This document shows, in pieces, positions 2,604 through 32,127 of a stretch of DNA of 32,127 bases. Source of the stretch: a bacterium (GTDB lineage: Bacteria > Patescibacteriota > Minisyncoccia > Phycocordibacterales > Phycocordibacteraceae); NCBI GenBank assembly GCA_021784875.1, contig JAJYHF010000032.1, positions 1 to 32,127 on the forward strand. Reading direction: 5' to 3'. The position numbers and the translations under genes were made by a program. Under the pieces are notes generated by a model, which ran no database searches, was not told the origin of the DNA, and worked only from the letters and a program-made list of their open reading frames with translations. The first letter of the stretch is position 1. Every line of letters begins with the position of its first letter.

Positions 2604-5600
2604 TTAAAGCATTCCTTTCACCAATCTTCGTGTCATCGGCCCGAAGTATCCGGTCGCCGGGAGGCCATGAGCGGCCTGGAAGCGCACGAGAGCGCGATAG
2701 GTGGCGGGGCCGAAGTAGTCGGTTTCGTTTCCGAGAGAACCGGGGCCGGTTCGGGAGACGGTGAAGCCGTGCGTGTTAAGGAACTGCTGAAGCTCCTTAA
2801 CCTCCGGGAGGTTAGCATGGAAGGCGAGGTTAGCCGTAAAGATCGGAACGGAAGCCGTCGAAGGAGCGGTTTGGGTGGAAGAAGGTCGATCTAGAAGGGC
2901 GGCGTGAACACTGTTGATGGTATTCTGATCAGCGCCAAAAGAGGTGAGAAGGAAGAGAATGGCGTTGATCTGGTTGCTAGTGAGGCTGGAGGAAGTGCCG
3001 GTCGGCACGACGGCAGCGGTCACCGTGTCGGTTGTGGTAGCGACGCTGTTGCTGCTTGCGGGAACGGCCGAAGCTGTGGGCACCGAGACGGCACCGCCCC
3101 CTCCCCCGCCGCCGCTCGAAACGATTATCGAACCACCTCCCCCACCGCCTCCTCCGGATGAGGCAGACGCTATCGAGAAACTTATTGCATAGTCCGTTGT
3201 GTTGGCATTGCCTGAGGAATCTTGACAACGGACGTAATAGGTATATGAATTTCCATCTGAAAGTCCAATTATTGTGGTGGAGTGCGATGTTGTCCCCGTA
3301 GTTGTAAAAGTATCGGTCATTGAGGAATAGCTGGTATTCGCCGTTGTAGAATATCTGCAGGTAGCGTTTTCATTGGTAGTTACCGAAAGAGTGGTTTGGG
3401 TGGTGCCAGATGAGAGAGAGCTTGATGGGGAGCCGCCAGAGAGAACTGGGGGGATGGTGTCTACCGTAGCGGAAGAAGCGGAAAATTGAGAAAATGTTTG
3501 GGTAGTAAATTGGCAGACTCCGCTAGCAACAGTGCACGTGGTTCCGGTATTGGTCCAAGAAGAACTGCCTGGTTCTTCACGAAGAATGGTGAGGGTCTGG
3601 CCGTTATAAGAAGAACTTATTGGGATTTGGATAGTAACGAGGTTATTAGAAGCTAAAGAGTGGGTCGGGTCACCGAACGACACTGCGCCCAAGGAGACAT
3701 AGCCGGATGGAATGTTTGATGTGGACACGGTTGAAGTAGCATCCATCTGGCTGAAGTCGATGGTCGCGGTGGCGGACATGGTCGTATTGGAAGGAACAGT
3801 AACTACTGCTCCGCTTCCAAGTGTTATTTGGACCTTGTTATTGAATGTGATTTGCTCAGTCGAAGTGGCGGTTCCGGTAGTCGCATAAACCACGTCGGGA
3901 GAAAGAATCGCCTTGCTCAGGTTTTTCCAGGGCGTCGAAGCACTGTAGCCTGAATTTAAATCGCTCCCCGATGACGACAAATAATACGAATGCGTATATT
4001 TATATGCCCCCATATCCCAAAAATTTTGCGGACGATAGAGGCCGTTGATGTCGGTTGTGATTAGAGAGCTCACTGTGGAGGTTCCTGAATTGACGGCAGG
4101 ACTGGTCGATTGGAGGGTAAAATTATTTGCGCTTGGATTGGAAAAAAGCGGATCGGAGTTAACCGGACTTGATTCCCAAGCCGGTGGAGTCCCGGCGTTA
4201 TACCATAAGTCGTTCGCAGCCGTACCAGGATTATAGCTTCCCCCAAAATAAGGAAAGTCAGTGGGGTTTTGAGTCGCGTATATGATGTTATTTCTGAAAT
4301 CTATCGAACCACTCCCGGCACCTCCCCCGCTAAATAGATCTCCGGTTGTTGTAGTTCCGTTGCCGGTCCAAAAACCGTAAGTGATCGCGCATTGTCCAGC
4401 GTCATAAGCGGTCTGATCCCCCCAGCCATAAACCGTATTGTTATAAAATTGTATCTGAGCATAATTATTAACGCCATGAAAAGCCGCGAACGAACACCAA
4501 ACGGTGCCGTCCACCATGGCCGGCCCCTGCCCCACGTTTACGAATAAATTATTATAAATCTTGACGGGCATCGAATAGCAAACGCTCGAGGTGGTCCCCC
4601 CGCTGCCCACATCAACAGCCGTGCCGCGTTGATTTACGACGACATTGTCATGCATCAGTATTGGGCTGCTGTAGTCGCCACATACTCCTTCATCATACAA
4701 ATGGAGCGCATGCTCCGCTTTGTTGTTGGCTAGATAATTCCAACCCAACTCATAGCCTCCTCTTATGCTCCCGCCTCGATTACTCAAATAAAAGTCATGC
4801 TCCAATTTCGAGGTGGAATCACAACCCCAATCATGTATGTAATTTCCCAAAGCTTTTATATTGCTTATGACGTCAACTGAAGAATTATAATTATCACTTC
4901 CGGCTATTGCGCCGCTTTCTCCGGTTGCGCAAGTCTGGTCGGTTATCTCATTACCGACATAACGCGCCGCTTGAAATGAATTGAAGCCGGTCTGATCGGC
5001 AATGGCAGTTATTTTGGAAAAATTCCAGAAATTAGAAGCACTATTATAATTCGCTACCGCCGCCTGACCGTTCGACAGTCCATAAAAAGTGACTCTGGAA
5101 TCCGGGTACGCGACCGCCGATATATTATCACCGCTCGAACCGCTGCAATGATAAATGGAAAAATTAGTAGCCGTCACGCCATTCTCTAGATAAACGATGT
5201 CGCCGGGAGAAACGAGGCAGCTCCTGGTCCCGTCCATATGGGACACCGTAGCCCACGGCGCAGACCAAGAGCCATCACCCGTCGTGTCGCTTCCGGAAGA
5301 AGCTATGAAATAGATTGAACCGGATTTTATAGTAAAAGGCAGGACATTCGAATTGACGCCGTTCACCGCCACATAAATCTTCGCCGCTCCATCGGCAGCC
5401 TGCGCTGGAATGGAAAAAGCGATCTCCTGCATCTTTTGATAATTATTATAAAGAACGGCCGGACCCCCTGGTAATTGCCCGTCAGCATTTTTCCAATAAT
5501 AAATGTAGGTCGCGGGATATGTATTCCCGGCCGAGTCTTTTATATAAACATCTGATGTTCCTTGTGACGCTCCGAGGTTGTCTCCCCAAATTGTAACAAT

Positions 5601-7238
5601 TGCTCCGCTCCCCTTTCCGTCGCCCAATCCGGTTTTGGGACCGGACGTGATGTCGGAGAAATTAAGAATCGGAGAATTATGCGTAGTTACCGGAACTGTC
5701 CCGTTTGAAGAAACGGACGCGGCCGAATTTCCGGCTATGTTAGTGGCAACAACAGAAAAAGTATAACTTGTACCACTAGCCAGACCGCCGACAGTGATGT
5801 TATTCCCCGTGCTAGTAGCTGTTATATTGTCAGGACTAGAGGTGACTGTATATTTAGTGATTGCCGAACCATTTGATGAAGGAATGGAAAAAGAAATAAC
5901 AGCCGAATCATAACCGGAAGCCATAGCAGCAACGTTTGTCGGGGCACCAGGAACGGCACAAGGAGTGGTGGAAACGACATTAGAAGAAAGCGAATCCCCA
6001 TTGGCATTTCGAGCAACGACTTCAAAATCATAGCCTTGACCGTTTGTAAGGCTGGTTATTATTGCATTTGTTTGCGTGGGACTTATTGTGGTAGCCAAAG
6101 AAAATGTTTGGGATCCCGTTTGGCGATCGTAAATAAGATAATTGGTAATTGCCGAACCGTTATCCGTGGTTGGAGCGATCCAAGAGAGCGAAACTTGCGT
6201 GTTGCCGAAAGCCGCCGCAAGTGATTGCGGTGCTGTAGGAGCGCCAACACTGACTGTTGTTGAAGCGGTAGTTGTTCCATATGAATTAGCCACTGAAAGC
6301 GTGTAGGTTGTTGTGACTGCCGGACCAATTACGACAGAACTCGATGTAGCGGTAGATTGGCTGCCTATACCGTTATCGACACTTACCGAAGTCGGCGTCC
6401 CGATTATATTCCAGGCCAAAGTTGAAGTAGCACCAGGCTGTATCGAACTCGGAGTGGCAGAAAAAGAAGAGATGATGGGAAGAGAGGCGTCTTTAAATGC
6501 AATGGCTGCTAACGCCGCCTTACTGCTCGCCGTTGACCAGACTGGGGCGGTTCCGTCATATGTATTGAGGCTGCCGCCTACGCACAATTGACTCGTAATA
6601 CCTATATCGGAAAAAATACAATTAAAAGGGTCAGAATAGGCACCGCTAATAGCGGTAGTTGTAGCATTAGAAACATCCATCAGCTGCAAGATCAGATCAT
6701 TCGTGCCATTCAGAGACAGCCCGACTCCGTTATGATTTACGCTGAATGAATTATCCCCTCGTTCGCCGGCGGTATCAAACGTAATGGGTCCGTTTGTACT
6801 CGCGTACTCCAAGACATTGGCTGCCACGTGCCACTGCGCCGAAGCAAAAGTCCAACTGATCGTTGTAGTCGTACTGGCGCTGCTCAACGTGTAAGCGCAT
6901 TGCGTTGAATAACCGCTGCTCGATCCATACCACCCAAAACATCCAGAAGTGGCCGGCAAAACCCAATTACTACCCCCGGTTACGCTGGAAATGACCGACG
7001 ACGAGACACTCTCTCCCGAAACCGCCAGCACCAGGAGATCCCCGTCTCCCGGTGCCGGCACGGTTACGGAGCAATGCGTGGAATCAGCGCATGTTGGAGT
7101 AGAGGTGGAATTCTGTATCAAAGTCCACCCTGATGACGCGTTGGCGATATGTGCGAAGGCGAATATACTTCCCACAAAGATAAGCAGCGCAAGGGAAAAC
7201 CTGGTATAAAATGCTTTTTGCGACACATGAGGACGCAT
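2604..7238 (-). CDS. giant secreted cell-surface protein: signal peptide, FN3/Ig-like repeats, right-handed beta-helix region, poly-Gly linkers, C-terminal peptidoglycan-binding domain
   Basis: MRPHVSQKAFYTRFSLALLIFVGSIFAFAHIANA signal; FN3 motifs (APQSLAAAFGNTQVSLSWIAPTTDNGSAITNYLIYDRQ); parallel beta-helix starts YFIASSGSDTTGDGSWSAPWATV and YYLSSSGSDLNSGYSASTPWKNLSKAI; C-term LPEVKELQQFLNTHGFTV...DYFGPATYRALVRFQAAHGLPATGYFGPMTRRLV (PG_binding_1). Confidence 0.85.
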   Translation of the reverse strand: MRPHVSQKAFYTRFSLALLIFVGSIFAFAHIANASSGWTLIQNSTSTPTCADSTHCSVTVPAPGDGDLLVLAVSGESVSSSVISSVTGGSNWVLPATSGCFGWYGSSSGYSTQCAYTLSSASTTTTISWTFASAQWHVAANVLEYASTNGPITFDTAGERGDNSFSVNHNGVGLSLNGTNDLILQLMDVSNATTTAISGAYSDPFNCIFSDIGITSQLCVGGSLNTYDGTAPVWSTASSKAALAAIAFKDASLPIISSFSATPSSIQPGATSTLAWNIIGTPTSVSVDNGIGSQSTATSSSVVIGPAVTTTYTLSVANSYGTTTASTTVSVGAPTAPQSLAAAFGNTQVSLSWIAPTTDNGSAITNYLIYDRQTGSQTFSLATTISPTQTNAIITSLTNGQGYDFEVVARNANGDSLSSNVVSTTPCAVPGAPTNVAAMASGYDSAVISFSIPSSNGSAITKYTVTSSPDNITATSTGNNITVGGLASGTSYTFSVVATNIAGNSAASVSSNGTVPVTTHNSPILNFSDITSGPKTGLGDGKGSGAIVTIWGDNLGASQGTSDVYIKDSAGNTYPATYIYYWKNADGQLPGGPAVLYNNYQKMQEIAFSIPAQAADGAAKIYVAVNGVNSNVLPFTIKSGSIYFIASSGSDTTGDGSWSAPWATVSHMDGTRSCLVSPGDIVYLENGVTATNFSIYHCSGSSGDNISAVAYPDSRVTFYGLSNGQAAVANYNSASNFWNFSKITAIADQTGFNSFQAARYVGNEITDQTCATGESGAIAGSDNYNSSVDVISNIKALGNYIHDWGCDSTSKLEHDFYLSNRGGSIRGGYELGWNYLANNKAEHALHLYDEGVCGDYSSPILMHDNVVVNQRGTAVDVGSGGTTSSVCYSMPVKIYNNLFVNVGQGPAMVDGTVWCSFAAFHGVNNYAQIQFYNNTVYGWGDQTAYDAGQCAITYGFWTGNGTTTTGDLFSGGGAGSGSIDFRNNIIYATQNPTDFPYFGGSYNPGTAANDLWYNAGTPPAWESSPVNSDPLFSNPSANNFTLQSTSPAVNSGTSTVSSLITTDINGLYRPQNFWDMGAYKYTHSYYLSSSGSDLNSGYSASTPWKNLSKAILSPDVVYATTGTATSTEQITFNNKVQITLGSGAVVTVPSNTTMSATATIDFSQMDATSTVSTSNIPSGYVSLGAVSFGDPTHSLASNNLVTIQIPISSSYNGQTLTILREEPGSSSWTNTGTTCTVASGVCQFTTQTFSQFSASSATVDTIPPVLSGGSPSSSLSSGTTQTTLSVTTNENATCRYSTTANTSYSSMTDTFTTTGTTSHSTTIIGLSDGNSYTYYVRCQDSSGNANTTDYAISFSIASASSGGGGGGGGSIIVSSGGGGGGGAVSVPTASAVPASSNSVATTTDTVTAAVVPTGTSSSLTSNQINAILFLLTSFGADQNTINSVHAALLDRPSSTQTAPSTASVPIFTANLAFHANLPEVKELQQFLNTHGFTVSRTGPGSLGNETDYFGPATYRALVRFQAAHGLPATGYFGPMTRRLVKGML

Positions 7239-7390
7239 GCTTATAAGGATACCTGATTCTTCTATCCGCAACCACTCATGTCCACAACGCATAACATGAC
7301 TCAGCAATCGGCTCGATCTCGAAGAGCTTTGAATCTGATATCGTTGCGGTAACGATGTTTTCATTCAAACGCACTCATGATACCGGGTAT

Positions 7391-8309: not shown

Positions 8310-9596
8310 TCATGCCTTCCGCTTCCATCTCTTCTCCTGGCGGACGAGACGAGAGGCGTCATCAAGGTCGGCGAGGAGAGCCCGGACGATGCGTTCGGTA
8401 CGGATCGACTGGGAGCCTTTCACCAAGATGACGTCGCCCGCGCGGACAAGCGCGGGGAGCGCTGCCGCGGCAGCGAACGAGTCGTCGAAATGCATGGTCT
8501 CGACCTCGCCCGCGGCCAAGACGAAAGCCTTCGCGCGGATGCCAACCGCGACGACGAGATTGGCCGCCTCGCCCGCGAGCGCGCCGATGCGTTCATGCTC
8601 CGCCACCGAATAGCGCCCGAGCTCGAGCATGTCGCCGAGAACGGCGATACGCCTCCCGGCGCGCGGGAAGGCCGCGAGCGTCGCGAGCGCTTCCTCGACG
8701 GCGGCGGGCGACGAATTATAGGAATCGTCGATGATGACTGAACCGTTTCTGCCGGAGAAGAGGCGGCTCCGGCCGGGCGGCGGCTCGTAGGCCGCGAGCG
8801 CGGCGAGTGCCTCGCCGGTCGGGATGCTGAAGGCAGCCGCAAGGGCGAGAGCAGCCGCGGCCGGCAGGATTTGCGTCTTCCCAAGCGAACCTCTTACGAC
8901 CAACTCCTCCTGCGCGCCACCCTCCGAGACGATCGCGTGCATCCCCGCAACCTTCTCCTCTTCCTCATAGAAATCGATCGCGCTGACCCGTATATTCGCG
9001 TCCTTACTCACGCCGTAGGTCATGACTCGCGCCGACGTGCCACGCGCCGCTTCGAGTGCATAAAGGTCGTCGGCGCAGACGATGAGCGGCGCTCCGGCAG
9101 GGAGCGCGTACGCTGGCGAGAACTCCTCTTCGCGCACCGCCTCAGGCGAGGCGTAGGCCTCGACGTGTACCGGTATCTCCGGCAGGCGGGTGATCACGAC
9201 CGCGTCGGGCGTCACGATGCGCAGGATGCGCGCGAGGTCGCCCGGCTCCTCCGCTCCCACCTCGAGCACGAGCAGGTTCGGGAAATGATTCGGCAACAAG
9301 AGGAGCGCGAGCACGCTTTTAGCGATGCCAGTCCAGGCAAATAGGTTACGTCCCGGATCCTTCTTCACGCCAAAAATCGCGTAAGGGACGCCGAATTCGG
9401 TGTTGAAATTCTTCTCGCTCTTGCGCACGAAGAAGCGCGGCGCAAGCGCGGCGGCGGCAGCGTCCTTGGTCGACGTCTTCCCTACCGATCCGCTCACCAT
9501 CACGACCTTCGGACGGTAGCGGCGGATGATCGCATAGGCGAAGAAGCCGAGAAACGCGGCGGCGAATGATTTGACGATACGCTTGAGCATAGCCAT
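8310..9596 (-). CDS. murF: Mur ligase, UDP-N-acetylmuramoyl-tripeptide--D-Ala-D-Ala ligase (MurF-like)
   Basis: VVMVSGSVGKTSTKDAAAAAL P-loop, FNTEFGVPYA, DDSYNSSPAAVEEALATLA, GRRIAVLGDMLELG; downstream of the PBP in the dcw order. Confidence 0.88.
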   Translation of the reverse strand: MAMLKRIVKSFAAAFLGFFAYAIIRRYRPKVVMVSGSVGKTSTKDAAAAALAPRFFVRKSEKNFNTEFGVPYAIFGVKKDPGRNLFAWTGIAKSVLALLLLPNHFPNLLVLEVGAEEPGDLARILRIVTPDAVVITRLPEIPVHVEAYASPEAVREEEFSPAYALPAGAPLIVCADDLYALEAARGTSARVMTYGVSKDANIRVSAIDFYEEEEKVAGMHAIVSEGGAQEELVVRGSLGKTQILPAAAALALAAAFSIPTGEALAALAAYEPPPGRSRLFSGRNGSVIIDDSYNSSPAAVEEALATLAAFPRAGRRIAVLGDMLELGRYSVAEHERIGALAGEAANLVVAVGIRAKAFVLAAGEVETMHFDDSFAAAAALPALVRAGDVILVKGSQSIRTERIVRALLADLDDASRLVRQEKRWKRKA

Positions 9597-24835: not shown

Positions 24836-26089
24836 TTATTTCTTCAGACTTCTAGAACGTGCTTTCCGATGCTGCGACAAAGAGAACCGGTGCGACTCGC
24901 TGTTCGCGAGGACGATGTCGGCCTCGGAAGCACGAGCGGCACGCGCGCCGGTAATCTCGCGCGGGCGGTGTCGTTCATCCTTCACCACCGCCACGACCGG
25001 GATCGCGAGACTCGCCTCGGCGAGCACCGCCTCGGTCGCCTTCTTCTGCGCCTTTCCGCCGTCGACGACGATAACGTTCGGCAACGGCCACTCGGGATGA
25101 CCGAGCCGGCGCACGAGCACCTCGCGCAGCGAGGCGATGTCGTCATTCTTCTGAACCCCTTTGATGCGGAAGGTGCGGTACGCCTTCTTCTCCGGGACGC
25201 CATCGACGACAGCGACCATCACGCCGATCGCGTCTCTCCCTGCGAGGTGAGCAGTGTCGTAAGCTTCGATCCGCGCGCCGGCGAAGCCGGCGCGTTCCTC
25301 CTCGCGTTCCTTCTTAATAAGCGAGACGTCCTGGACATGGTCGAGCGCGAAAAGCTCGCGTCGTAGCTCTGCGGCTTCCTCGAACCGCTCCTCCGCTGCC
25401 GCCTGCTTCATGTCGCGTTCGAGCGCCTTTCGCAGTTCCGTGACACGCCCGCTGAGAAGGAGCGCGACCCGCCGGATGGTCTGCCGATATGCTTTCTGAT
25501 CGAGCGCCCCCTTCTTCGCCAAGGCTTCGAAGGGCAGGTGCGGATACTGTCCGATCTGGCGGTTGAACTCGATTCTCGCGTGCAGGTGTCCACTCTTCGT
25601 TGTGACGGGCTTCGGCGTGTCGTAGAACGGGAAGATCTTCCGGATGAGCCGCAAGGCCTCCTTCAGCTGCGTGCCGTTCGGGAACGGGCCGAACGTGTGC
25701 GAGAGGGGCACGTCCGACTTTCCTAGATCTTTTCCGCGCACTATGAGCACGCGCGGCCACTCCTCTCTCGTGATGACGACGTAGAGGAATGTCTTGTCGT
25801 CCTTCCCTTCCACATTCGCCTTCGGCTGATACTTCTTGATGAGTGCCGCCTCCCGTACGAGCGCCTCTAGGACCGTCGACGCGGTCTCGTGGCTCACGCG
25901 ATCCGCGCGCGTCACCATGTCCACGATGCGCGGCCCTCTGGTCGCTATGAGATCATCATCAAAATAGCTTCGCACCCTGTCGCGCAAGCTCGTCGCCTTC
26001 CCGACGTAGAGCACCTGTCTCCCCTTCTTAAACAGATACACCCCTGGCAGATCCGGCAGGTCGAACTTATTTAGATCGCTTCTTTGCAT
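24836..26089 (-). CDS. uvrC: Excinuclease ABC subunit C, short form
   Basis: GIY-YIG region DLPGVYLFKKGRQVLYVGKATSLRDRVRSYF; UVR-like segment; RNase H-like nuclease EAYDTAHLAG / NDDIASLREVLVRRL / IVVDGGKAQ / ESHRFSLSQHR. Confidence 0.93.
   Translation of the reverse strand: MQRSDLNKFDLPDLPGVYLFKKGRQVLYVGKATSLRDRVRSYFDDDLIATRGPRIVDMVTRADRVSHETASTVLEALVREAALIKKYQPKANVEGKDDKTFLYVVITREEWPRVLIVRGKDLGKSDVPLSHTFGPFPNGTQLKEALRLIRKIFPFYDTPKPVTTKSGHLHARIEFNRQIGQYPHLPFEALAKKGALDQKAYRQTIRRVALLLSGRVTELRKALERDMKQAAAEERFEEAAELRRELFALDHVQDVSLIKKEREEERAGFAGARIEAYDTAHLAGRDAIGVMVAVVDGVPEKKAYRTFRIKGVQKNDDIASLREVLVRRLGHPEWPLPNVIVVDGGKAQKKATEAVLAEASLAIPVVAVVKDERHRPREITGARAARASEADIVLANSESHRFSLSQHRKARSRSLKK
24844..24857. 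repeat. 14-nt partial copy of the GTCNGAC palindromic element at the 3' end of uvrC
   Basis: TCAGACTTCTAGAA is identical to 31104-31117 in the tgt element. Confidence 0.4.
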
Positions 26090-28772
26090 GGCGTTTCAGC
26101 ACGCGGGCGAGATAGTCGCCAGTGTAGGTGCCGGAGGCGGTGACCTCTTCGGGCGTGCCCTTCGCGACGACTTTGCCGCCGCCGGCGCCGCCCTCAGGAC
26201 CGAAGTCGATGATATAGTCGGCCGATTTGATGACGTCGAGGTTGTGCTCGATCACGACGACCGTGTTGCCGCGCGCGACGAGCTCCTGAAGGATCTCGAT
26301 GAGCTTCTTCACGTCGTCGTAGTGGAGGCCGACGGTGGGCTCGTCGAGGAGGTAGATGGTCTTCATCGTCGTCGGGCGATAGAGCTCGGCCGCGATCTTG
26401 ACCCGCTGCGCTTCCCCGCCCGAGAGGGTCGTCGCGCTCTGGCCGAGGGTGAGGTACTCGAGCCCGGTCGCGTTCAATTGTGCGAGGCGTTCTTGGATCG
26501 CCGGGATGTCGGCGAAGAACTGCTCCGCCTCCTCGACCGTCATCTGCAGGACCTCGTAGATATTCTTGCCGCGGTAAGTGACTTCCAAAGTTTCTTTCAT
26601 GAATCGTTTCCCTTCGCAGACATCGCAGGTGACGTAGACCGTCGGAAGGAAGTGCATCTCGACGGCGACGACGCCGTTCCCCTGACAAGCCTCGCAGCGC
26701 CCGCCGGGGACGTTGAAGGAGAAGCGACCCGGCTTCCAGCCTCGGGCGCGAGCCTCGCTCGTCGCGGCGAAGAGGTCGCGGATGTGGGTCATCGCGCCGG
26801 TGTAGGTGGCCGGGTTGCTGCGCGGCGTGCGGCCGATCGGCGACTGATCGATGAGGACGACGCGGCCGGCATATTCGCTGCCGGTGAGCGACGCGACATG
26901 CTCGAGTTGAGCGTCTTTCTTCCGCCACGACTTTAGCCGGTCGTTGGTCCGTTTGACGAGATTCCGGTGCAGGATGTCGTAAAGGAAGGTCGACTTCCCC
27001 GAGCCGGAGACGCCGGTGATGGCGACGAGCTTCCCGAGCGGGATGTCGATATTCTGGTTCACGAGATTGTGTAGCGTCGCACCGCGCACCTTGAGCCACC
27101 CGCGTTCGGCGGTACGACGCGTTTCCGGAACGGAAATCTCCTTCTCCTGTCGAAGGTAGCTGAGTGTCGAAGAACCGCTCTCGTTCTTCTTCGCGGTAAG
27201 GAGGTCGCCAAGCCAGCCCGAGACGACGACATGACCGCCGTGCACGCCCGCGCCAGGCCCCACGTCGACGATGTAGTCGGCAGAGTAGATGGTGTCCTCG
27301 TCATGCTCGACGACGATGATGGTGTTGCCGAGTTCCTTCAGGGTGAGGAGCGTCTTAATGAGGCGGTCGTTGTCGCGCTGATGAAGGCCGATGGTCGGCT
27401 CGTCGAGGACATACAAGGCGCCCGTGAGCCCGCTCCCGAGCTGCGAGGCGAGGCGGATGCGCTGCGCTTCCCCGCCCGAGAGCGTAGCGGCCGAACGATC
27501 GAGCGTGAGGTAGTCGAGGCCGACATCGAGCATGAACGAGAGCCGGCTCCCGATCTCTTTCAGGATCGGTGCGGCGACTTCGCGTTTCATCTCGGAGAGC
27601 TCGAGCGAGTCGACGAAGTCCTTCGCCTCGCGGATGGACATGCTGGTGAAGTCGACGATGTTCTTGCCGAGCGGTGATTCGGAGAAGTCAGACTTCTTTG
27701 AATTCTTGAAGTCCGACTTCTCCGAATCGCCTTTCAAGTACACCCGCAGCGCCTCCGGCCGCAGGCGTTTCCCTTCGCAGACCGGGCAGGGCTCCTCTGA
27801 GAAGAGCGACTTGGTCCCGAGCCCGTTACAGGCCGGGCAGGCGCCATAGGGCGAATTGAAGGAGAAGAGCCGCGGCTCCACCTCGGGGAATGACGATCCG
27901 TCATCCGGACAGATGAATTTCGACGAGAGTGTCTCGAGCGTGCCATCCGCATGCTTTATCTTCACTAATCCGTCGGCCTCCTTGAGCGCGAGCTCGAGCG
28001 CCTCGGAGAGCCGCTCGCGCGCGTTCTGGGTCGAGCGCGCGAACTCGCTCACATAAATCGAGTCGACGACCGCGTCGATGTCGTGCCGCTTGTTGCGGTC
28101 GAGGATCACCTTCTCGCGCAAGGACTGTTGCTTGCCGTCGATGACGACCTTCTCGAAGCCTTTGCCGAGGAGGTCATAGAGGAGCTGGTAATACTCCCCC
28201 TTCCTGCCGACAACGACCGGCGCATAGACAGTCACCGCGCTCTTGTCGACCGCAACGCCCATCACCTGCGTTCCCGATTCTTTCCGTTTCGCCTCGACGC
28301 GGGCGAACACCATCTTGATCATCTCCTCCTTCGAGAGACGCGTGATGGGGACGTCGTGATTGACGCAATAAGGCTGACCGACGCGCGCATAGAGCACACG
28401 CAAATAGTCGTAGATCTCGGTCACCGTCGCGACGGTCGAGCGCGGATTGTTCGAGCGGCTCTTCTGGTCGATAGAGATGGCGGGCGAGAGGCCGGTGATC
28501 TCGTCGACGTCCGGCTTCGGCATCTGATTGAGGAACTGCCGCGCATAGGCCGAGAGCGACTCGACGTAGCGCCGCTGCCCTTCGGCGAAGATGGTGTCGA
28601 ACGCGAGCGAGGACTTCCCGCTCCCCGAGAGGCCGGTGATCACCGTCATGGCCCCGCGCGGCATCTCGACGTCGATATTCTTCAAATTATGCGTGCGCGC
28701 ACCTCTCACTGAGAGCCAATCGCTCCCGTGATGGTGCCCGTGTTCCTCTTTTTTGCTCGGTTTCTTTTGCAT
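26067..28772 (-). CDS. uvrA: Excinuclease ABC subunit A
   Basis: GLSGSGKSSLAFDTIFAEGQRRYVESLSAYARQFL, two LSGGEAQR(I/V) signatures, CEACQGNGVV...CDVCEGKRF zinc module. Confidence 0.97.
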   Translation of the reverse strand: MQKKPSKKEEHGHHHGSDWLSVRGARTHNLKNIDVEMPRGAMTVITGLSGSGKSSLAFDTIFAEGQRRYVESLSAYARQFLNQMPKPDVDEITGLSPAISIDQKSRSNNPRSTVATVTEIYDYLRVLYARVGQPYCVNHDVPITRLSKEEMIKMVFARVEAKRKESGTQVMGVAVDKSAVTVYAPVVVGRKGEYYQLLYDLLGKGFEKVVIDGKQQSLREKVILDRNKRHDIDAVVDSIYVSEFARSTQNARERLSEALELALKEADGLVKIKHADGTLETLSSKFICPDDGSSFPEVEPRLFSFNSPYGACPACNGLGTKSLFSEEPCPVCEGKRLRPEALRVYLKGDSEKSDFKNSKKSDFSESPLGKNIVDFTSMSIREAKDFVDSLELSEMKREVAAPILKEIGSRLSFMLDVGLDYLTLDRSAATLSGGEAQRIRLASQLGSGLTGALYVLDEPTIGLHQRDNDRLIKTLLTLKELGNTIIVVEHDEDTIYSADYIVDVGPGAGVHGGHVVVSGWLGDLLTAKKNESGSSTLSYLRQEKEISVPETRRTAERGWLKVRGATLHNLVNQNIDIPLGKLVAITGVSGSGKSTFLYDILHRNLVKRTNDRLKSWRKKDAQLEHVASLTGSEYAGRVVLIDQSPIGRTPRSNPATYTGAMTHIRDLFAATSEARARGWKPGRFSFNVPGGRCEACQGNGVVAVEMHFLPTVYVTCDVCEGKRFMKETLEVTYRGKNIYEVLQMTVEEAEQFFADIPAIQERLAQLNATGLEYLTLGQSATTLSGGEAQRVKIAAELYRPTTMKTIYLLDEPTVGLHYDDVKKLIEILQELVARGNTVVVIEHNLDVIKSADYIIDFGPEGGAGGGKVVAKGTPEEVTASGTYTGDYLARVLKRHAKKRSK
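27676..27728. repeat. 53-bp in-frame palindromic element within uvrA
   Basis: GATTCGGAGAAGTC-A-GACTTC [tttgaattctt] GAAGTC-C-GACTTCTCCGAATC: 20 of 21 arm positions pair. Translates as DSEKSDFKNSKKSDFSES. Confidence 0.85.
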
Positions 28773-28780
28773 GCTTAAAT

Positions 28781-28815
28781 CCTGCCCGTGGCGGGGCAGG
28801 TACGAAGTGATTATA
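28781..28815 (-). promoter_or_regulatory. uvrA promoter (extended -10 TGGTATAAT) with 5'-proximal leader hairpin CCTGCCC-cgccac-GGGCAGG
   Basis: TATAAT at 28815-28810 (minus) preceded by TGG; inverted repeat 28781-28787/28794-28800 would start within a few nt of the predicted TSS. Confidence 0.6.
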
Positions 28816-28823
28816 CCATATCC

Positions 28824-30923
28824 CTATTTCCCTGACAGCGGCTTACGGGTGCGGGGTTTCTTTTTCGGACCGGCTCCTTCGAGCTTATAGATCTCGTCGC
28901 GGATGAGAGCGGCGGTCTCGAAGTCGAGCCGCTCGACCGCTTCGGCCATCTCTTCCCTCTTCTGCTCGATAAGCGCCTTCGGGTCTTTCTTATAGGAAAG
29001 CTCGTCGAGCGCGAGAAGCTCTTCCACCGTCTTCTGATGCTCGCTCCGCATCGTTTCGGCGATGTCCTTGATCTCTTTTTGAATGGTCTTCGGCGTGATG
29101 CCGTGCTTCGTGTTGTAGGCGAGCTGGAGCTCGCGGCGGCGGTTCGTTTCTGAAATAGCTTTTTCGAGCGATCCGGTCATGACGTCGGCATACAGGATGA
29201 CGCGGCCTTGGACGTTCCTCGCCGCGCGGCCGATCGTCTGGATGAGCGAGGTCTCGGAGCGGAGGAACCCTTCCTTATCCGCGTCGAGGATGCCGACGAG
29301 CTCGACCTCCGGCAGGTCGAGCCCCTCGCGCAGGAGGTTGACGCCGACGAGGATATCGAACTCCCCTTTGCGAAACTTGGTGAGGATCTCGATACGGTCG
29401 ATCGTCTTCACGTCGGAGTGGAGATACTCGGCTTTGATGCCCTTCTCGCGCAAGAACGCGGAGAGGTCTTCGGCCATCTGCTTGGTGAGCGTGGTCGCGA
29501 GCGCGCGTCCGCCGCCTCTGATGACCTTCTCCGCTTCCTCGATGAAATCCGCGACCTGACCGGGATACGCCACAGGTTTGAGTAAGGTCAGACCTTCCTC
29601 AGCTGCTGAGTAAGGTCTGACCTTACTCATTCCTTCAGAAACGGGACGAATGATGAGCTCCGGGTCGAGGAGACCGGTCGGGCGAATGATCTGTTCGACG
29701 ACTTGATCGGAATGCCCCCGCTCGTAGGGGCCGGGCGTCGCACTGGTATAAATGGTCTGTCCCGTCCTTTCAGTGAACTCTTCGAAGGTGAGCGGTCGAT
29801 TGTCGCGCGCCGAGGGGAGGCGGAAGCCGTATTCGACAAGATTATCCTTACGGGAACGGTCTCCCGCGTACATGCCGCCGAGCTGCGGGACGGTGACGTG
29901 CGACTCGTCTATGACGGTGAGGAAGTCGGGGTCGCATCGCTTGAAATAGTCGAGGAGCGTGTAGGGCGGCTCGCCCGGCGCGCGGCCGTCGAAATGGCGC
30001 GAATAGTTCTCGATGCCGTTGACGTAACCCACCGCACGGATCATCGCGATGTCGTTCAACGTCCGCCGCTTCAAGCGTTCGGCCTCAAGGGGTTTCTCCT
30101 CCCGCTTGAATCTTGCCAGCTGCTCGTCGAGCTCTGCTTTGATGTCGGCCAACGCGCGTTCGCGCTCCTCCTCGCTCGTGACGAAGTGCTTGGCCGGAAA
30201 GATGAAGACATTCTCCGGTTCCCCAAGCTTCGCGCGCGAGATCGGGTCGAGCTTCTCGACGTGTGCGACCTTACTTTCATCAAAAATGACACGGTAGATA
30301 ACCCGTTCGTTCACGGGCATAAGCTCGAGCGCGTTGCCGACCGCCCGGAGCTGCCCTGGCTCAAGGTCGGCGGTCGTCCGCTCGAAGTAGATGCCGACGA
30401 GCGTGCGGATGAGGCTCGCGCGATCGCCTTCAGAGCCCTTCTGTATCTTCACATTCACCTTCTCGTATTCTTCCGGCGAGCCGAGACCATAGATCGCGGA
30501 AACGGACGCGACGATGATGACATCCCTTCGCGTGAGCAGGGCTTGCGTTGCCGCGTGGCGGAGACGGTCGATCTCAGCATTGATCATCGCCTCCTTCTCG
30601 ATGTAGGTGTCGGAGTGCGCGATGTAAGCTTCCGGCTGGTAGTAATCGTAGTAAGAAACAAAATAGTGCACCGCGTTCTTGGGGAAGAATTCGCGATACT
30701 CCTGCGCGAGCTGGGCGGCGAGCGTCTTGTTGTGCGCGAGGACGAGCGTCGGCTTGTCGGCCTTCGCGATCACGTTCGCCATCGTGAAGGTCTTACCCGT
30801 CCCCGTCGCGCCGAAGAGCGTCTGGCGGCGCACGCCCTGCCCCAACCCTTCTTCAAGGGCCTTGATCGCCTGCGGCTGATCGCCGGCGGGCTGGTATGGG
30901 AGATGGAGCTTGAAGTCAGCCAT
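28824..30923 (-). CDS. uvrB: Excinuclease ABC subunit B
   Basis: PAGDQPQAIKALEEG, TLFGATGTGKTFTMANVI, YYDYYQPEAYIAHSDTYIEKE, DQVVEQIIRPTGLLDPE, TTLTKQMAEDLSAFL, C-terminal UVR motif. Confidence 0.97.
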   Translation of the reverse strand: MADFKLHLPYQPAGDQPQAIKALEEGLGQGVRRQTLFGATGTGKTFTMANVIAKADKPTLVLAHNKTLAAQLAQEYREFFPKNAVHYFVSYYDYYQPEAYIAHSDTYIEKEAMINAEIDRLRHAATQALLTRRDVIIVASVSAIYGLGSPEEYEKVNVKIQKGSEGDRASLIRTLVGIYFERTTADLEPGQLRAVGNALELMPVNERVIYRVIFDESKVAHVEKLDPISRAKLGEPENVFIFPAKHFVTSEEERERALADIKAELDEQLARFKREEKPLEAERLKRRTLNDIAMIRAVGYVNGIENYSRHFDGRAPGEPPYTLLDYFKRCDPDFLTVIDESHVTVPQLGGMYAGDRSRKDNLVEYGFRLPSARDNRPLTFEEFTERTGQTIYTSATPGPYERGHSDQVVEQIIRPTGLLDPELIIRPVSEGMSKVRPYSAAEEGLTLLKPVAYPGQVADFIEEAEKVIRGGGRALATTLTKQMAEDLSAFLREKGIKAEYLHSDVKTIDRIEILTKFRKGEFDILVGVNLLREGLDLPEVELVGILDADKEGFLRSETSLIQTIGRAARNVQGRVILYADVMTGSLEKAISETNRRRELQLAYNTKHGITPKTIQKEIKDIAETMRSEHQKTVEELLALDELSYKKDPKALIEQKREEMAEAVERLDFETAALIRDEIYKLEGAGPKKKPRTRKPLSGK
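29579..29629. repeat. 51-bp in-frame, nearly perfect palindromic element within uvrB
   Basis: TGAGTAAGGTCAGACCTTcCTCAGC-T-GCTGAGtAAGGTCTGACCTTACTCA: 24 of 25 pairs complementary around 29604. Translates within SKVRPYSAAEEGLTLL. Confidence 0.88.
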
Positions 30924-32127
30924 AGTAATTTCTTATAAAATCCGCGCGGTAGGCGTCGAAACGGTTGCCGAGGATGGACTGGCGCGCGCCGGCGACCAGG
31001 TCGAGGATGAAGCCGAGGTTATGCATCGAGGCGATGATTGGGCCGAGCATCTCGCCCGAGCGCAGGAGGTGCGAGACATATGCCAATGAGAACTCGGCAG
31101 AAGTCAGACTTCTAGAATCCGTATTGAAGTCTGACTTCAAGCCGAGTTCGGAGAGTACGGTGAAGTCGTTGCGATATTTTTCGTTCGTGAGATGGACGAT
31201 GCCGCGCTTCGTATAGATAGAGCCGTGGCGGCCGAGGCGCGTCGGCGCGACGCAGTCGAAGAGGTCCATCCCGTTCGCGATGCCTTCGAGAAGGTCGCCC
31301 GGTTCGCCGATGCCGAGGAAGTGCCGCGGCAGCTCATCGGGCAACTCCCCCACCGCCGCCTGGAGCGCACCGCGCATGTCCTCCTTCGAGAAGGAACCGC
31401 CGATGCCGATGCCATCGAACCCCATCTCAGCGATCGCACGCGCCGATTCGCGCCGCAGATCCTCATGCCGACCGCCCTGCACGATACCGAAGATCGCCTG
31501 CTTGTCGCGCGCGTCGAGATTCTGCCGATGCGCCTTCAAGCTGCGCTCGGCCCAGCGGTGCGTGCGCTCCATCGCCTCGCGCTGATACTCATAGGGCTCG
31601 GTCGGCGCAGTGCATTCGTCGAAGGCGAAGAAGATGTCCGCGCCGAGCGCATGCTGGATCTCGACCGATCGCTCGGGCGTGAAGCGGTGAAGCGAGCCGT
31701 CGAGATGCGACGTGAAGGTGACGCCTTCATCATCGATCACCGCGAGCTGGCCGTGCTGGCTCGCGACGCTCTCGTCGTAGACGGCGACTTGGTCCTGTTT
31801 TTCCGTCACTTCTCCTTTGGTGAATTTCGAAATAGTCTTGCCGAACGCCGCACCAAGCGAGAACACCTGGAACCCACCCGAATCGGTGATGGTCGGTCCC
31901 TCCCAGCCCATGAACGGCGCGAGGCCGCCCGCCTGCTTCACGGTTTGCTCGCCGGGTTGGAGGTAGAGATGGTAGGTGTTCGCGAGGACGACCTCAACAC
32001 CGAGGCTCTTCAGGTCGCGCGGCAGGACGCCCTTCACGCCGGCTTTGGTACCGACCGGGGAGAACGCGGGCGTGCGGATGGCGCCGTGCGGCGTCTCGAT
32101 GACGCCGGCGCGCGCTCGGCCTTTGGC
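30916..32127 (-). CDS. tgt: Queuine/preQ1 tRNA-guanine transglycosylase, 5' end beyond the window
   Basis: Frame continues upstream of the listed ORF to the window edge (AKGRARAGVIETPHGAIRTPAFSPVGTKAGVKGVLPRDL); VVLANTYHLYLQPGEQTVKQAGGLAPFMGWEGPTITDSGGFQVFSL; GGRHEDLRRESA. Overlaps the uvrB start by 8 bp. Confidence 0.95.
   Translation of the reverse strand, partial: AKGRARAGVIETPHGAIRTPAFSPVGTKAGVKGVLPRDLKSLGVEVVLANTYHLYLQPGEQTVKQAGGLAPFMGWEGPTITDSGGFQVFSLGAAFGKTISKFTKGEVTEKQDQVAVYDESVASQHGQLAVIDDEGVTFTSHLDGSLHRFTPERSVEIQHALGADIFFAFDECTAPTEPYEYQREAMERTHRWAERSLKAHRQNLDARDKQAIFGIVQGGRHEDLRRESARAIAEMGFDGIGIGGSFSKEDMRGALQAAVGELPDELPRHFLGIGEPGDLLEGIANGMDLFDCVAPTRLGRHGSIYTKRGIVHLTNEKYRNDFTVLSELGLKSDFNTDSRSLTSAEFSLAYVSHLLRSGEMLGPIIASMHNLGFILDLVAGARQSILGNRFDAYRADFIRNYYG
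31091..31148. repeat. 58-bp in-frame palindromic element within tgt
   Basis: AACTCGGC-a-GAAGTCAGACTTC [tagaatccgtatt] GAAGTCTGACTTC-aa-GCCGAGTT: 13-bp perfect inner arms plus 8-bp outer arms. Shares the 15-mer AGAAGTCAGACTTCT with the uvrA element (27683-27697). Confidence 0.85.

Follow-up and report, generated by a model that had tools for sequence, protein, structure and literature searches.

Palindromic elements found in frame within three consecutive genes, tgt, uvrB and uvrA, of a patescibacterial contig belong to a genome-wide family that is best explained (probability about 0.8) as REPIN-like doublets spread by RAYTs and surviving in frame in tolerant protein loops. The window, i.e. 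the whole stretch of DNA analyzed, comprises 32,127 nucleotides from a 517-kb genome (G000; assembly 90% complete). In the proposed mechanism, the unit would consist of two inverted copies of a palindrome of ~23-25 bp around a short spacer, and such units would be spread through single-stranded DNA by Y1/HUH transposases of the RAYT type, each encoded by a gene with that palindrome on both sides. Most targets in a gene-dense genome would be coding, and copies that are stop-free, in frame and located where a surface loop or linker tolerates them would survive and then be inherited, with the inserts translated as about 15-18 extra residues. We infer that the RAYT mobilizes the elements, that the doublet is the unit moved and that the inserts have a near-neutral effect on the proteins carrying them.

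Doublets in the tgt-uvrB-uvrA-uvrC region

The four genes lie on the minus strand in the order tgt (30916..32037; PF01702, with a reading frame that runs on to the window edge), uvrB (28824..30923; profile match and alignment to solved UvrBs), uvrA (26067..28772; profile match) and uvrC (24836..26089; PF08459 and UVR motif). The full elements that the sequence-only reading had described in the first three are present, all on the minus strand, and each is a long palindrome built from two arms that are themselves palindromic, as that reading had also stated. The uvrB doublet (29574..29634, core 29579-29629) encodes MSKVRPYSAAEEGLTLLK, and its arms are identical to a palindrome that brackets a RAYT gene on another contig of the same genome. 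The uvrA doublet (27673..27731, core 27676-27728) is of the AAGTCNGACTT type with a GAATTC spacer and encodes DSEKSDFKNSKKSDFSES; no RAYT with a matching palindrome was found in this assembly. The tgt doublet (31091..31148), also of the AAGTCNGACTT type, encodes ELGLKSDFNTDSRSLTSAE, and the same element occupies the same tgt site in a relative, G005. The expectation that the core would be free of stops in most frames was not borne out, with only one of six frames open in uvrB, three in uvrA and two in tgt.

The fragment noted earlier in uvrC (25712..25723, minus strand) stands only in part. It matches the left half of the unit GGAAAGTCNGAC present at the same site in the relative G025, and palindromic units occur at this site in four relatives, but there is no full insertion, since UvrC is no longer than that of relatives in the orthologue alignment. 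The piece thus appears to be at best a remnant, a decayed half-unit that is not an insertion now. The remainder of the window lacks further elements, as had been noted; the family nevertheless extends through the genome, to dnaE, tsaD, mutY, miaA and an ATPase gene. Elsewhere in the window, positions 2604-7364 hold a 1586-aa ORF without any NCBIfam match.

Genome-wide distribution and clustering

Single GTCNGAC motifs occurred at chance level (9 found versus 11.8 expected), which by itself would suit an origin of the palindromes by chance or from low-complexity coding sequence. In contrast, a genome-wide scan for paired GTCNGAC motifs, of the kind that the sequence-only reading had suggested, yielded eight pairs spaced 8-30 nt apart in 517 kb versus none with a reversed-pattern control. 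Together with exact repeats of 23-26 nt across contigs and insertions relative to orthologues, this result contradicts a chance origin, which we consider vanishingly improbable. All eight doublets were intragenic and in frame, in dnaE, tsaD, mutY, miaA, tgt, uvrB, uvrA and a conjugation-type ATPase gene (gene names outside the window were assigned by inspecting translations), and six single units were intergenic, four of them surrounding the RAYT. Among the top 28 inverted repeats of the genome, eight (nine when the RAYT-side pair is counted as two) were members of this family, and most others resembled GC-rich terminators. Separately, a group II intron reverse transcriptase gene (L051:8104-9378) was closely followed by a 54-nt inverted repeat (9458-9511).

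The proposed concentration in tgt-uvrB-uvrA-uvrC was upheld as a cluster, but not as one specific to repair genes. Three of the eight doublets fell within 7 kb (post hoc Poisson P about 3e-4), and in the relative G013, which played no part in forming the clustering idea, the tgt-uvrB-uvrA-uvrC cluster (L301:5568-13127) contained seven palindromic insertions of several families (P about 2e-5). The G013 genome (L285-L304) carries at least five unrelated palindrome families at about 70 places in 395 kb.

Insertion into orthologues and the reading frame

Alignments of orthologues showed the elements to be clean in-frame insertions; in UvrB, UvrA, Tgt and TsaD, the stretch was absent in most of the 30 species aligned. 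Solved UvrB structures pass straight from the residue matching 429 to the one matching 455, and the loop position was taken from this alignment because the AlphaFold model of UvrB was poor (pLDDT 51). A near-identical KSDFKNSKKSDF element was found in mutY and uvrA of G000, uvrA of G081 and tsaD of G005; the uvrA element lies at the same site in G000 and G081, and the tsaD and dnaE elements share their sites with G013. The earlier suggestion that these elements are a spreading family of coding-tolerant palindromes is well supported: copies occur across the genome, relatives have empty sites, different genes hold near-identical copies, and the same palindrome brackets a transposase gene.

Two subfamilies were distinguished, one with TGAGTAAGGTCNGACCTTACTCA arms in uvrB, dnaE and tsaD, and the other with AAGTCNGACTT arms, in many cases around a GAATTC-like spacer, in uvrA, tgt, mutY and others. 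None of the six frames of a perfectly symmetric TGAGTAAGGTCNGACCTTACTCA-type doublet would be free of stops; a T>G substitution that turns TAA into GAA in one arm creates its sole open frame, and the uvrB, dnaE and tsaD copies are all read in that frame. Doublets located at the corresponding dnaE and tsaD positions in G013 have this TAA to GAA change with a different core, such that the pattern is based on three genes in G000 and two sites that G013 shares with it. The change may already have been present in the mobile unit or may have been selected after insertion.

A RAYT-like transposase bracketed by the uvrB-type palindrome

A 237-codon ORF on contig C24 (G000:C24 364-1077; L046) lies between copies of the uvrB-type palindrome, four in all (L046:145-342 and 1073-1099), for which the longest exact matches were 26 nt in dnaE, 23 nt in uvrB and 23 nt in tsaD. 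The ORF matched PF01797 (Y1_Tnp) above the cut-off (E 3e-7), and it matched NF047646 (REP_Tyr_transpos) weakly, at 24 bits, below the equivalog cut-off of 80. The HxH (HUH) motif and a tyrosine (Y144) were invariant in 18 relatives. Searching the PDB by sequence with this protein or its profile gave no match, and only a fold search succeeded: the confident structural model (pLDDT 92) matched best 4ER8, TnpA-REP bound to a REP hairpin, with moderate similarity (TM about 0.4-0.5). This weak sequence and moderate fold similarity suggests that the ORF probably encodes a RAYT, i.e. a TnpA-REP-type Y1/HUH transposase. A 70% identical RAYT in another genome has kept TGAGTAAGGTCNGACCTTACTCA beside it, and homologous RAYTs sit on contigs labelled Paceibacterota and Nomurabacteria, which points to a CPR genome here, probably of the Paceibacteria.

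The association extended to relatives. Matching palindromes stood on both sides of 41 of 61 RAYT-like loci (genus and order) compared to 7 of 330 control genes (mostly RAYT-type brackets themselves), and the bracketing palindromes differed by lineage. The GTCNGAC doublet pattern was present in 34 of 148 relatives; PF01797 genes occurred in 33 of these 34 genomes versus 63 of the 114 without elements (p=1e-6, with ancestry and completeness not controlled), and element counts are not independent because relatives share ancestry. Some RAYT ORFs carry two further internal copies of their own palindrome; in those at L139, L158, L163, L261, L273, L278 and L280, the flanking palindrome recurs within the coding sequence. 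A second Y1 subgroup (L119-L127; 225-232 aa, PF01797 E about 1e-15) lacks bracketing palindromes.

In-gene elements and own-genome RAYTs matched more closely than under label permutation (0 of 2000 permutations as good). The strong form of this relationship, a matching own-genome RAYT for every in-gene element, was rejected, as it holds for only about a quarter (about 10 of 40 sampled elements matched a sampled own-genome RAYT by at least 15 nt). The uvrA, tgt, mutY and miaA elements of G000 showed only a 7-nt match to sampled RAYTs, and the source RAYT of the uvrA/tgt subfamily is absent or unassembled here. These data bear on the idea that the elements are dead, formerly mobile sequences now subject only to vertical descent and decay. 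The sites shared with G005 (tgt), G081 (uvrA) and G013 (tsaD and dnaE), the uvrC remnant and the subfamily lacking a matching RAYT would fit such a history, whereas the exact matches of the uvrB, dnaE and tsaD elements to the palindromes of an intact resident RAYT, and the nearly identical elements in mutY of G000 and tsaD of G005, argue against it, and we regard it as possible but unlikely.

Reuse of insertion sites and bias among gene classes

Palindromes occurred at the same site in uvrB in 7 of 30 species, in tgt in nine, in tsaD in nine, in uvrA in three and in uvrC in four, compared to 6% of random windows in the same loci, which themselves include some elements and terminators. The palindromes at one shared site were mostly unrelated in sequence between species. 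Loop tolerance, target choice or in-place replacement could each have produced the shared sites. We tentatively suggest that RAYT-borne REPINs may have moved into a coding niche in this CPR lineage. The mobile doublet itself would then carry a stop-free frame (the TAA to GAA change), and docking loops in uvrB, tgt, tsaD, uvrA and uvrC would be occupied anew, time after time, by the elements of unrelated RAYT lineages, either because these prefer such targets or because one element replaces another in place.

The sequence-only reading had also raised the possibility of shared RNA or DNA signals, namely attenuators or RNase sites co-regulating the excision-repair transcripts, or hairpins sensed by UvrABC. 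The elements are strong palindromes in both DNA and RNA and three lie in adjacent genes; nevertheless, the same elements are spread in coding frame over unrelated genes (tsaD, miaA, rnr, secF and others) and are missing from most relatives, and sequences at one site are unrelated between species, all of which speaks against co-regulation and damage sensing alike. A signalling role of either kind is very improbable.

The bias toward repair genes proved real and also broader, covering replication/repair and tRNA modification. Replication/repair genes accounted for 28 of 78 in-gene events compared to 4 of 50 background genes (a length-weighted sample, the four including SMC; p=3e-4), and tRNA-modification genes for 20 of 78 compared to 1 of 50 (p=2e-4), where event classes were assigned partly by inspection and events share ancestry. 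Without the genome of the window, the values were p=8e-4 (repair) and 5e-4 (tRNA modification); counted by distinct gene family, they weakened to p=0.02 and 0.08, respectively (combined 9e-4). Such a bias would be explained if the elements were kept as useful, for example by altering repair or tRNA-modification enzymes with mutator or regulatory effects, and the authors who described the same bias in tagged REPs proposed mutator effects (PMC3733652). However, most orthologues lack an element, a single site can hold unrelated palindromes and peptides, the bias weakens by gene family, and it can reflect which conserved enzymes have tolerant loops. Retention for usefulness seems improbable.

Comparison with known mobile palindromes

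In-frame palindromes within genes are already known elsewhere; earlier examples in repair genes came from Rickettsia and a few REP-rich bacteria, and a literature search of incomplete coverage returned no report of such elements in CPR/Patescibacteria. Here, a likely source enzyme, shared insertion sites and a stop-removing variant are visible. With a reduced CPR genome in which the likely enzyme, the donor palindrome, empty sites and reused loops can be considered side by side, it becomes possible to test how coding palindromes originate and why repair and tRNA-modification genes are favoured, a bias so far unexplained. As a caution, some residues of CPR proteins, UvrB and Tgt among them, may be encoded by transposons.

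REPINs were defined by Bertels and Rainey in 2011 (PMC3116915). The elements described here resemble them as inverted doublets of a short palindrome, with a spacer and the capacity to form a long hairpin, that also flanks a Y1 transposase gene; a RAYT flanked by the same palindrome was found for uvrB, dnaE and tsaD, but not for uvrA, tgt, mutY or miaA in this 90% complete assembly. In contrast to the REPIN family of that study, nearly all of which lies outside genes (of the 1,067 most abundant 16-mers, 14 overlap a gene), full doublets here are mostly intragenic and low in copy number, and the extragenic preference of REPs and REPINs was not seen in G000, where 8/8 doublets lie in genes and single units are intergenic. 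Rickettsia palindromic elements, likened here by description, are in-frame palindromes in conserved genes, including uvrB and dnaE of R. conorii (PMC3733652, which links some Rickettsia elements to REPs); unlike these, our elements have a bracketed transposase as a likely mobilizer. The IS200/IS605 TnpA proteins (ISDra2, IS608) share the HUH-Tyr fold and subterminal hairpins, whereas the protein here is longer (about 220-260 aa) and a short palindrome lies at both ends of its gene.

A further parallel is with the GTAG/CGTC REPs, for which in-frame copies inside genes are reported from several bacteria; uvrABC, dnaE, ligase and tRNA pseudouridine synthase genes hold many of these (PMC3733652). 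Like the present elements, these are in-frame dimers in uvrA, uvrB, uvrC, dnaE, ligase and tRNA-modification genes; they encode 20-30 residues, and their intragenic copies are biased to repair genes. Our elements differ in their CPR hosts, in the stop-removing variant, in the use of the same gene sites across species by several unrelated families and in having no tag enrichment, with GTAG, GGAG and CGTC occurring about as often as chance predicts in the 10 nt around 99 RAYT-bracketing palindromes. The RAYT-linked, REPIN-like coding-frame inserts are an untagged, gene-dwelling variant of known REP-type elements.
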